From a virus: 25,455 nt of DNA. A program made the translations under genes and the position numbers. Below, piece by piece: positions 17,237 through 20,563 of the stretch. Every line of letters begins with the position of its first letter. Position 1 is the first letter of the stretch. The notes under the pieces were generated by a model that did no database searches, had not been told where the DNA came from, and saw only the letters and a program-made list of their open reading frames with translations. The stretch covers positions 1 through 25,455 of the IMG/VR virus record IMGVR_UViG_3300021437_000076. One strand, written 5' to 3'.

Positions 17237-18379
17237 CTACCAGTTTGTGATCGTGTAAAAAATCGTACTGATGTCAGCGATGTTGATAGATCCGTCCGCA
17301 ACACAGGCGTTGATGACCACCGCTGCTGTGCCGATGATGCCCGCGGTATTACTGCCGGGCGCAGACGCGTAACCGTTGACGGTTAGCGTGCACGTGTTGG
17401 CGGTCGCGCGAGAGACATGGATGGTGCTCTTAGTGGTGCTCTTGAGCCAGAGCCCCTGAGTCGCGCCGAGCGTGACGGTTCCAGCAACGAGCGTCGCCGT
17501 GCCCTTGACGACTCGCGGGTATAGGACCGGATCATTGGTGTCGACGACGGCGCCTTTAGTCGCGCTCGACTTCCACGAGCTGCCACCGTAGAGGGTCCCT
17601 TCGTAGCCGGCCTCGAACACGGTGCCGAGCGGGATCACCTTGGCGGCTGCCCACCAATTTGGACGAGTCAACGGAGCGGTCGTAGAGACCGTGCCGACCA
17701 CGTAGGGACCGTTCTGTGCCGCAGTCGTCTGCTTACAGAGCAACACGACGTCGCCCGCTGCGTACGTGATGCCGTCTTGGCTAACCGCAAATGCCGCTAG
17801 GTTCGATATGTTCGAGTCGACGACGCCGCGAACCTGGTAGACGTTTGAGTTGACCTGTTGGTTGTACATGGCCGCGGATTGCGTGCCAGCGGCGATCGCC
17901 GTGGCGGCACCATAGGTCGTGTCCGTGCGAGAGCTAAAGTCCAGAGTGTCGGTACCCAGAACCTTCGTGCCGGGCCAACCCGCAGTCGACATGTTCCAAT
18001 GAGTTCCAGCACCAGCCGTTCCAGAAACAACCGACACCAACATGCCCGACTGGATCTTGTCGGCCATATCGGCATCATCAGCGCGCCTCAATGCACAGCT
18101 ACCAGACGACACTGCTCCGGCGATGTAGATGCCGTTCTGCGAATGTGTCGACTGATCCTTGACGAGAATTCGATCGCCCTCGACAATCGTCCCGCTGGTA
18201 TCGATGGTCGTCGAAACCGAGGTCAGCGTCAGGTTGGTGGTTGTTGCATACTTGCAGAGTCGAACCGGCACCGCGCCGTTCATCATGCCAGCCGTTGACT
18301 TGTAGATGACCTTAGCCGCTTCGGACGGCAGTTGCAGGCGTTGCTCGCTGACAACCGTGGGATTCGTGAGATACGTCAT
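17237..18379 (-). CDS. Fibre-like structural protein with duplicated GD-x-LV-x-QNGxY modules
   Basis: The 380-aa protein, low in charge and rich in Thr/Ser/Gly/Ala, contains two copies of a module of about 60 residues. Copy one has TIVEGDRILVKDQSTHSQNG followed by IYIAG and LRRADDADM. Copy two has ITYAAGDVVLLCKQTTAAQN followed by GPYVVGTV and LTRPNWWAAAK. The GDRxLVKxQxxxxxNGIYxV element is common in phage fibre and head-decoration proteins, where it forms beta-hairpin domains. A C-terminal block of beta strands follows (GTATLVAGTVTLGATQGLWL). The ATG at 18379 has GAGGA 6 bases before. It stands in the head module, separated from the tail genes, so a head fibre or decoration role is more likely than a tail fibre. 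Its leader runs antisense to the HNH gene's control region. Confidence 0.65.
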   Translation of the reverse strand: MTYLTNPTVVSEQRLQLPSEAAKVIYKSTAGMMNGAVPVRLCKYATTTNLTLTSVSTTIDTSGTIVEGDRILVKDQSTHSQNGIYIAGAVSSGSCALRRADDADMADKIQSGMLVSVVSGTAGAGTHWNMSTAGWPGTKVLGTDTLDFSSRTDTTYGAATAIAAGTQSAAMYNQQVNSNVYQVRGVVDSNISNLAAFAVSQDGITYAAGDVVLLCKQTTAAQNGPYVVGTVSTTAPLTRPNWWAAAKVIPLGTVFEAGYEGTLYGGSSWKSSATKGAVVDTNDPVLYPRVVKGTATLVAGTVTLGATQGLWLKSTTKSTIHVSRATANTCTLTVNGYASAPGSNTAGIIGTAAVVINACVADGSINIADISTIFYTITNW

Positions 18380-18448
18380 GAGAGTTCCTCAGTGCGTTTT
18401 GGTTTCTGAGCAGCAGCCTGATTGGGCGTGCCGGAAGGTGGAAAGCAG

Positions 18449-18476
18449 TTGTCGATAGCTGCCAGCGCGCTATCAT
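18449..18476 (+). promoter_or_regulatory. Candidate promoter of the HNH endonuclease gene
   Basis: TTGTCG (18449-18454) and TATCAT (18471-18476) are separated by 16 bases, giving 4 of 6 and 5 of 6 matches to the sigma70 -35 and -10 boxes. Transcription would start near 18483, exactly at the first base of the leader's long helix. The spacer contains a GATAGC/GCTATC dyad (18454-18474) that partly covers the -10. It is the only promoter-like pair I found just upstream of this plus-strand gene. Confidence 0.45.
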
Positions 18477-18482
18477 TGGTGA

Positions 18483-18548
18483 GTCGATTCCCTGTGCTGC
18501 GTTACTGATCCTTTCACGGCGACAGGGAGTCGACACTTGAAAGGATCA
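18483..18548 (+). promoter_or_regulatory. Two interleaved, mutually exclusive RNA helices that control the HNH ribosome binding site
   Basis: Helix A pairs GTCGATTCCCTGT (18483-18495) with ACAGGGAGTCGAC (18522-18534), 13 pairs with one G-U. Helix B pairs TGATCCTTTCA (18506-18516) with TGAAAGGATCA (18538-18548), 11 perfect pairs. The order A, B, A', B' is a pseudoknot topology. Only 3 bases join A' to B', too few to span a 13-bp helix, so full formation of both is unlikely and the leader looks like a two-state switch. B' contains the ribosome binding site AAGGA (18541-18545), 10 bases before the ATG. Helix B hides it; helix A leaves it free. Confidence 0.65.
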
Positions 18549-18555
18549 AACACTC

Positions 18556-19071
18556 ATGAAACAGATCCCGCTAACCCAGGGACAGTTCGCATTGGTTGAC
18601 GATGAGGACTTCGAGCGGATCAATGCGCATAAATGGCACGCTTATCGAGATCAGCATACCTGGTATGCTCGTACCAATGAGGCACGTTGCGCCGGAAAAC
18701 AACGTACCGTTATGATGCATCGACTGCTGTTGCGTGCGCCTCCGCTAAGCAAGATCGATCATATCGACGGAAATGGCCTTCATAATTGGAAGGCAAATCT
18801 ACGCGTTGTTACCGACCGTCAGAACGCTCAAAATCTTCATATGGCTAGGTCGTGTTCTTTGCCTGGAGTTAGCTGGATAGCTTCGCGCGGTAGGTTCTTG
18901 TCCCAAATCCACGTCCGGCAAACAACTCACAACCTAGGTCGATATCTTACTGCGGAAGAGGCTTACGCTGCTTACTACTCTGCGTGCCTACAACTTGGAG
19001 AATCGGTTGAGCTTCTGCCTTTGCCGACTTGCCAGATAAAGCATCGTCTTCTACCAAAGGCGCTTCGGTAG
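18556..19071 (+). CDS. HNH homing endonuclease with AP2-like DNA-binding domain
   Basis: This 171-aa plus-strand gene lies inside a minus-strand operon. Residues 52-95 hold an HNH nuclease core: RTVMMHRLLLRAP, KIDHIDGNGLHNWKANLRVV and TDRQNAQN, with the metal-binding D68-H69, the H76-N77 pair and N81/N90. The N-terminal QIPLTQGQFALVDDEDFE with INAHKWHAY is the usual start of this free-standing phage HNH family. Residues about 103-142 (LPGVSWIASRGRFLSQIHV, then LGRYLTAEEAYAAYYSAC) form an AP2-like DNA-binding domain. Such genes copy themselves into homing sites by double-strand breaks. The ATG follows AAGGA by 10 bases, part of a leader that can fold two ways. Its last 125 bases overlap the portal gene antisense. 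Confidence 0.88.
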   Translation: MKQIPLTQGQFALVDDEDFERINAHKWHAYRDQHTWYARTNEARCAGKQRTVMMHRLLLRAPPLSKIDHIDGNGLHNWKANLRVVTDRQNAQNLHMARSCSLPGVSWIASRGRFLSQIHVRQTTHNLGRYLTAEEAYAAYYSACLQLGESVELLPLPTCQIKHRLLPKALR

Positions 19072-20563
19072 GATCTGCTGGACGTGGCCCGTCCTTCGCC
19101 GTCAGCATCCGGGTTCGACGCCCCGTCGTGTCGTCTTTGGCCAACAGCTTCAGCGGCGTCTTGCTCTCAAGGTCATCGATATCGACTGGCGCATCCATGG
19201 ACGTCATGTCCTTGGCCATCGTGATCAGTTCTTGCGGTTTCGGGATGGCGCTGATGTCGGCGACAATTCGCGGCGCGTAAGACCGGGGAAGAGCCGGGTG
19301 ATTGAGCTGCGTCCAGGGCAACGCGAGCCCGAATCGCAACGTGTCTGACATTGCGCCAGCCGAGTAGCTCAACACCTTGTCCGTGTTGGCGTCGGCGGTG
19401 GTAGCAGTGGCGAGGTTGCCGTTTGGACCCGGCTCCGTCGTGAAAGCTTGTCCGAGTAGCCCTTTGGCGATCGAACGATTCAGGTAGCTCAGGAACTCCA
19501 TCGCCGTCATGGCGGCAGCCGCGCGGAGCAGTTCGACCCTGACCGTATTCGGCAGCGCCGCGGAATTCATTGAACCGCTACCGAAGGCTGCCAATGCAGC
19601 GTTCAGGAGTTCGATGTCTTTCTTGTCCGCGATGGGCGTTTCGTGCCCGGGCTGCAGGGTTCGGTTGAAATACCCCAGCACCCAAGGGCGAATGACGCGC
19701 TCGAAGTCTTGCGCGGAACAGCGGGTCACCATGCGCTTGAGCAGCATGTAGAAGGCAACGAATCGGCCTTCGCCGTCACGCGTCGGATACTCCTTGCTGA
19801 GGCTCGGAGTGTGGATCAGGAACTTGCCCGGGTACTTGGCGACGGGCAATCCGTAGACGCCAACCGTCGGTCCCATATAATCGCTGCCGGGACCAACCAG
19901 GCCCTGGTCGTACACGTACAGATCCCACGTTACTGGGTTCGTGTAGTTGAGGCGGCGCGTGTGGATGAATCGGAGGTCGGAGATGTCCCAGACGGATTTC
20001 GTCGGGTGCTCCCACATGATCTCGTGGCCCGCTACGCCATCCCAATCGGCCCAAGCGAGCTGCTGGATCCGTTGGGTTCGGTACGGGATGTTGTCGAACT
20101 CGAGTGCGAATTCATCAGCGACCCGCTTGGTCAGATCGCGCTCTGCATCGGTCGCGGAATCGCCAAGTCTTGCCGGTTCGACCGTGTAGCGACCGCACGC
20201 GATTCCAAGGATTCGCGCTCGAGCAACCGCGCGAGTGTCGGGGTCGTTCTCGAGAAGTTCGCTCAGCAGATCGACAAGCTGGTAGCGCCAGCCTGAATTG
20301 GCCAGCCTGAACGCCGTCGAGACATACTGCCCACTGAGCGATTGCCCGATGATGGTCGGGTAGCGGTCAATGATGGGCTGCTCAGCAAACTGAGCCTGGC
20401 GGTTCGGCGCTAGCAAGGGCGGAACCAGGATCGGATCCTGTTGTCCGTACTGAGGCGGATCGAACCAGTTGCGAACCTGTGCCCGGTCAGGATCCGGCAA
20501 TGCCCGGACGGCGTTCATCTCGGCTTCGAATGCCGATGGTGCTCGTTTCGAGAATGGCCACAT
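18947..20563 (-). CDS. Portal protein, DUF935-type (Mu gp29-like)
   Basis: The 538-aa protein would form the dodecameric DNA gate at the head vertex. Motifs of the Mu gp29/DUF935 family include YVSTAFRLANSGWRYQLVDL, LLSELLENDPDTRAVARARI, RIQQLAWADWDGVAGHEIMW, FIHTRRLNYTNPVTWDLYVY and FERVIRPWVLGYFNRTLQPG. The start is coupled to the 77-aa gene as TAATG. The order terL, small gene, portal is standard. The last 41 codons (SGKSAKAEAQPILQVVGTQS and the basic end) lie antisense to the HNH gene. That tail is low-complexity and probably came from, or was shaped by, insertion of the endonuclease; comparing relatives without it would show this. Confidence 0.88.
   Translation of the reverse strand: MWPFSKRAPSAFEAEMNAVRALPDPDRAQVRNWFDPPQYGQQDPILVPPLLAPNRQAQFAEQPIIDRYPTIIGQSLSGQYVSTAFRLANSGWRYQLVDLLSELLENDPDTRAVARARILGIACGRYTVEPARLGDSATDAERDLTKRVADEFALEFDNIPYRTQRIQQLAWADWDGVAGHEIMWEHPTKSVWDISDLRFIHTRRLNYTNPVTWDLYVYDQGLVGPGSDYMGPTVGVYGLPVAKYPGKFLIHTPSLSKEYPTRDGEGRFVAFYMLLKRMVTRCSAQDFERVIRPWVLGYFNRTLQPGHETPIADKKDIELLNAALAAFGSGSMNSAALPNTVRVELLRAAAAMTAMEFLSYLNRSIAKGLLGQAFTTEPGPNGNLATATTADANTDKVLSYSAGAMSDTLRFGLALPWTQLNHPALPRSYAPRIVADISAIPKPQELITMAKDMTSMDAPVDIDDLESKTPLKLLAKDDTTGRRTRMLTAKDGPRPADPTEAPLVEDDALSGKSAKAEAQPILQVVGTQSSKQRKPLPQ

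Follow-up and report, generated by a model that had tools for sequence, protein, structure and literature searches.

The window, by which we mean the whole analysed stretch of 25,455 nucleotides (25 kb) from a virus record, contains a Mu-like late operon on its minus strand, with terminase, Mu-type portal, head and protease genes. At the 3' end of the portal gene lies a plus-strand gene for a protein of 171 residues, which was matched to the PHROG HNH endonuclease family with an E value of 1e-22. Its matches to the Pfam families HNH_3 (21.7 bits, cut-off 24.8) and AP2 (22.2 bits, cut-off 33.3) were both under the Pfam cut-offs. Residues D68, H69, N77 and N81 of the protein are invariant and common to its relatives, the closest of which, found in viral contigs and genomes, were roughly 40–48% identical to it. 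The gene is probably a homing endonuclease gene of the free-standing HNH-AP2 type. The coordinates of all features are collected in Table 1.

Table 1. Features of the locus and of related leaders (numbers without prefix are positions in the window)
Feature	Position	Strand	Basis or remark
Detached tail of the portal reading frame, GTPNQAAAQKPKRTEELS and stop	18377–18432	-	Stop overlaps the ATG of the next gene (ATGA), as in relatives
Direct repeat GCGTGCC, copy 1, 7 bp, promoter side	18426–18432		Exact repeat of 18982–18988
Sigma70-like promoter candidate, TTGTCG-16-TATCAT	18449–18476	+	9/12 matches; predicted RNA 5' end 18482–18483
Helix A, 5' arm, GTCGATTCCCTGT	18483–18495	+	Helix search, folding
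Helix B, 5' arm, TGATCCTTTCA, in the loop of helix A	18506–18516	+	Helix search, folding
Helix A, 3' arm, ACAGGGAGTCGAC	18522–18534	+	Helix search, folding
Helix B, 3' arm (B'), TGAAAGGATCA, holds ribosome binding site AAGGA (18541–18545)	18538–18548	+	Helix search, folding
Weak third helix around the ATG, GGATC 18543–18547 / GATCC 18564–18568, in the helix-A fold	18543–18568	+	Folding
HNH-AP2 endonuclease gene, 171 aa	18556–19071	+	Pfam HNH_3 and AP2 (below cut-off), PHROG HNH
Portal protein gene, Mu-type	18947–20563	-	Portal_Mu E=4e-32; relatives L027–L030; 3' end interrupted by the insertion
Direct repeat GCGTGCC, copy 2, far end of the insertion	18982–18988		Repeat match; flank alignment with relatives
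int-alpA RNA or look-alike	L066:1414–1479		Directly upstream of HNH-AP2 gene
int-alpA RNA or look-alike	L091:1409–1475		Directly upstream of HNH-AP2 gene
int-alpA RNA or look-alike	L002:2912–2981		Directly upstream of HNH-AP2 gene

Insertion of the HNH-AP2 gene and its leader in the portal gene

Alignments with related portal genes show the HNH gene and its leader to be an insertion of ~556 bp, antisense to the Mu-type portal gene at its 3' end. The HNH gene was absent at this site in four relatives (portal identity 60–66%), in all of which the portal stop was located at or adjoining the start of the next gene. In the window, about 556 bp lie between the portal body and the former portal tail; the insertion replaces the last ~17 portal residues and moves apart two genes that in the relatives have adjoining or overlapping stop and start codons. 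When the flanks were rejoined at the 7-bp repeat, an in-frame portal tail was restored, and the alignment of this DNA with the relatives ran through the junction. For every relative (L027–L030), the rejoined DNA outscored the uninterrupted reading; it beat nearly all shuffles for L027, L028 and L029, and for L030 it was equalled by 31 of 300 shuffles.

Homology to the HNH relatives (LGESV, corresponding to LGETV in L002) continues for a few residues beyond the repeat, which makes the exact edge on the HNH side of the insertion less certain. Alignment with the relatives indicated that the last ~27 codons of the HNH gene are antisense portal DNA. The G+C content of the insertion is about 0.50–0.54, compared with about 0.60 in its surroundings, and helices A and B both lie entirely within it. 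Promoter candidate, leader and HNH-AP2 gene together appear to constitute a small mobile unit. It was also observed that the HNH and portal genes overlap antisense by 125 bp (18947–19071), and that the C-terminus of the HNH protein past about residue 144 is apparently encoded by portal DNA, yet matches the family motif LGE(S/T)V.

Two interleaved helices in the leader and their calculated folding

A first-pass annotation of the leader had described two interleaved helices in the order A-B-A'-B', the second of which contains the AAGGA serving the ATG at 18556. Both helices were found at the positions and with the lengths described. Helix A consists of 13 pairs, including one G-U pair (18488 with 18529), and helix B of 11 perfect pairs; the AAGGA, 10 nt from the ATG, is fully inside the 3' arm of helix B. 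Helix A is the longest near-perfect helix in the whole window (span up to 80 nt), and besides helix B just one other perfect helix of at least 11 bp occurs there. When 18380–18575 was shuffled 2000 times with preservation of dinucleotides, a helix of at least 13 bp appeared in 2 shuffles and one of at least 11 bp in 48, and an interleaved pair of helices of at least 11 bp was obtained in none. The A/B pair is therefore beyond chance.

A sigma70-like pair had been taken to fix the RNA 5' end at the first base of helix A. Such a pair is present and points near 18483, but its match is close to chance level. A scan of 900 bp found one such site where chance alone would give about 0.5, so that an RNA 5' end near 18483 would be only a guess. 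A small dyad (GATAGC 18454–18459 / GCTATC 18470–18475) occupies the spacer of the promoter candidate. A leader peptide of four codons with a GTG start (18494–18508) was also considered and rejected; its sole possible ribosome binding site, GGTGAG (18478–18483), lies upstream of the predicted RNA start.

Folding of the RNA 18483–18600 was calculated with an equilibrium model that includes neither proteins nor coupled translation nor pseudoknots. In the calculated ensemble, helix A was present at 97% and helix B at 0.7%, and the AAGGA was about 78% open. The best A fold had an energy of –38.1 kcal/mol and the best B fold one of –34.8 kcal/mol; with this gap of 3.3 kcal/mol the two folds are nearly balanced in the model. 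The A fold leaves the ribosome binding site mostly open, and helix B, when formed, hides it completely, in line with the competition that had been proposed. It had further been proposed that helix A forms first during transcription with the site open, which was supported by the folding and by the order of the arms, the 3' arm of helix A being complete at 18534 and that of helix B at 18548. The barrier between the two folds on a nested path was estimated to be ~25–28 kcal/mol, and for this reason an RNA that has adopted one of them may stay in it, unless the change is assisted by pseudoknotted intermediates. Because A leads B both in time and in energy, the default state of the leader is, according to the model, open without an outside trigger. 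The folding thus bore out two near-balanced folds with A first, but the default was open and a drive toward B did not appear.

The calculated balance was sensitive to the 5' end of the RNA. With either arm of helix A blocked, or with the RNA starting at 18496, the probability of helix B was 0.97–0.99 and the openness of the site was 0.00. For RNA starts at 18483, 18484, 18485, 18486 and 18487, the probability of helix B was 0.007, 0.12, 0.30, 0.82 and 0.99, respectively; loss of 3–4 bases from the predicted 5' end was thus enough to tip the calculated equilibrium to helix B. Between 10 and 70 °C the modelled ON/OFF contrast was maintained, and a temperature switch was rejected, the model state being unchanged over this range. 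How far the A fold leaves the site open varied with the modelled 3' extent (0.40–0.93 up to 18800, 0.03 at 18900), partly because GGATC of B' is also able to pair with GATCC 18564–18568.

Leaders of related HNH-AP2 genes

The viral, phage, plasmid and genome collections searched yielded no homologous leader. DNA searches of phages and plasmids, helix-pattern searches of viral contigs, and a search among HNH relatives in viral contigs and genomes each returned none. The single exact match to the helix-B pattern (L026) was set aside, since the gene there is unrelated. A B'-ATG pattern gave 31 matches, a good part of which is within chance by a rough count. Comparison of the leader with the Rfam covariance models gave no match at the gathering score or at E up to 5. 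A riboswitch or other known RNA, and an intron in the portal gene, were rejected as there was no Rfam match on either strand. In 84 leaders of related HNH-AP2 genes, a ribosome binding site was recognisable in 44; it lay in a helix of at least 8 bp in 2 of the 84, and the interleaved arrangement (8 bp or more) was seen in none of them.

The int-alpA RNA (RF02996) was found directly 5' of related HNH-AP2 genes, above the Rfam threshold in L066 and L091 and under it in L071. An int-alpA-like RNA 5' of the HNH-AP2 gene of L002 was detected with a two-sequence model made from L066 and L091. The L091 match (41.9 bits, threshold 35.8) was obtained in 'evalue' mode and missed in 'gathering' mode, probably because of speed filters. 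By eye, the leaders of L071, L047 and L107 resemble the int-alpA ones. The association of int-alpA with HNH-AP2 genes is not named in the title of the Rfam family. The window leader shares with these RNAs a position directly 5' of an HNH-AP2 gene, but its fold and sequence differ; it had no int-alpA match in Rfam and scored 1.6 bits against the model of HNH-leader examples. Structured leaders thus recur in some members of the HNH-AP2 family, but the leader of the window stands alone. Two other RNAs were observed near HNH-AP2 genes, namely a group I intron (Rfam, 55.9 bits; L097:2413–3086) about 0.5 kb downstream of such a gene in a viral contig, and a permuted tmRNA match (60.5 bits; L047:1057–1272) upstream of one in a 24-kb viral contig.

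A possible ON-by-default leader and its alternatives

We tentatively read the leader as an ON-by-default device in a mobile unit, with an anti-sequestor hairpin that depends on the RNA 5' end. In an RNA starting at or before 18483, hairpin A would fold first and trap the 5' arm of helix B in its loop. Hairpin A would then serve as the anti-sequestor, with the ribosome binding site mostly open and the gene ON by default. If A were unavailable, helix B would form and the whole ribosome binding site would be hidden (OFF), as calculated for shortened RNAs. The trigger for OFF may be an RNA start or trimming 3–4 or more bases downstream, or capture of an arm by a protein or another RNA; candidate disruptors of A are trimming, an alternative start, a protein, or antisense RNA transcribed from the late operon of the opposite strand. 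The likely role would be to let the gene's own promoter give a brief burst of endonuclease, with shortened or aged RNAs shut off. The narrower proposal that the leader is a translation switch reading the 5' end of its own mRNA, so that an intact end means ON and loss of 3–4 bases means OFF, is rather doubtful.

The ON-by-default reading is supported by the occurrence of the interleaved helices in 0 of 2000 shuffles, by the location of leader and gene together inside the insertion, and by the sharp tipping at 18484–18487, next to the predicted 5' end at 18482–18483. There are also published precedents in leader RNA structures that control I-TevI, segB and mobE (PMC2988022). Against it, the arrangement is known from a single sequence with no homologous leader found in the collections searched, and the interleaved pair with the site in helix B was seen in 0 of 84 related leaders (at least 8 bp). 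Moreover, the 5' end is predicted from a promoter match near chance, the openness of the site depends on the modelled 3' extent, and the equilibrium model ignores proteins, coupled translation and pseudoknots.

The two dyads might instead act as DNA, being operators just 3' of the promoter that are bound by a repressor or by the AP2 domain of the endonuclease. They are long, nearly perfect inverted repeats beginning at the predicted +1, a further dyad lies in the promoter spacer, and I-TevI is described in PMC2988022 as repressing its own promoter through an overlapping operator. However, the similarity of the leader to the insertion (putative homing) site was matched by 404 of 500 shuffles, by which an operator resembling the homing site was rejected; copies of the half-sites elsewhere in the window were at chance level, and the precise position of the ribosome binding site within B' would be left unexplained. 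We regard operators as unlikely. It is still less likely that hairpin A alone is relevant, acting as a stem at the 5' terminus that would make the mRNA more stable and leave the start region unobstructed, with helix B incidental. Such a role would agree with A beginning at the predicted +1 and being present in 97% of the ensemble, and with the hairpin beside, not over, the ribosome binding site of seg43(25) in Aeromonas phage 25 (PMC2988022). But a perfect 11-bp complement of the ribosome binding site in the loop of A is unlikely to be there by chance, and in the calculation helix B controls the fold whenever A is missing. Template switching during formation or insertion of the element could also have left the inverted repeats as functionless by-products, as their perfect or near-perfect pairing within a mobile insertion and their absence from all related leaders found would suggest; since two events would be required, one of them placed precisely on the ribosome binding site and the second beginning at the predicted +1, this origin appears improbable.

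A pseudoknot stabilised by a ligand or protein, combining helix B with the inner part of A and concealing the ribosome binding site, seems very improbable. The topology is that of an H-type pseudoknot and the duplex energies are favourable for both stems, but full A together with full B leaves 3 nt to span 13 bp, which makes that form sterically implausible. With A shortened to ~6–7 inner pairs, loop 3 would be 9–10 nt and a pseudoknot would be possible on modelled geometry; against it, Rfam gave no family match even at E up to 5. In the first-pass annotation, helix A was supposed to form first and then refold spontaneously to B, as a timer that shuts the gene. The first step agrees with A being first in the growing chain, and the folds are within ~3 kcal/mol of each other; however, A exceeds B in stability as well, being the ground state (97%, against 0.7% for B), and the nested A-to-B barrier is estimated at ~28 kcal/mol. 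Because nothing in the calculation drives A to B, a timer is scarcely credible.

The ON-by-default reading can be compared with known systems. In PMC2988022 and PMC3014915, T4-type homing endonuclease genes are described as having their ribosome binding site covered by a hairpin, which cannot arise in the transcript from their own late promoter. As in I-TevI, I-TevII, I-TevIII, segB and mobE of phage Aeh1, the leader in the window has a helix able to cover the ribosome binding site of a phage endonuclease gene; mobE is likewise an HNH gene within another phage gene, according to the same two papers. The T4-type transcript from the own late promoter is described there as lacking the hiding helix, whereas the predicted transcript of the window has both arms of B, its predicted start (18482–18483) being upstream of them. 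A stable hiding helix is present as helix B, but in the calculation only when A is absent. Unlike these T4-type leaders, the leader of the window has a second interleaved helix, A, which in the calculation holds the site open. A very stable hairpin just 5' of an uncovered ribosome binding site, like helix A, is described for seg43(25) in a passage of PMC2988022 that mentions no competing helix over the site. In the timP type I toxin mRNA, mutually exclusive folds of a full-length mRNA for a harmful protein decide translation (PMC11228461), as is proposed here for the leader of the window. There, the active fold is a pseudoknot and the trigger is an antisense RNA (PMC11228461); no such partner was seen in the window.

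The leader of the window is plausibly a variant that works like T4-type hairpin control. It was classed as a variant and not as a member because the predicted promoter does not exclude the arms of the hiding helix from the transcript. Most documented cases of RNA control of phage homing endonucleases come from T4-type phages and involve a single hiding helix. On the evidence of one sequence, we consider the leader plausible as a new form of the RNA control exerted on homing endonuclease genes. Should it behave as in the calculation, the ribosome binding site of a gene inserted in a Mu-like phage would be guarded by a 5' hairpin, within a compact leader that is ON by default. A sharp prediction would follow, namely that a change of 3–4 bases at the RNA 5' end decides the fold. 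Such a leader would be a simple means of ensuring that a DNA-cutting enzyme is made only from newly synthesised transcripts of its own promoter.
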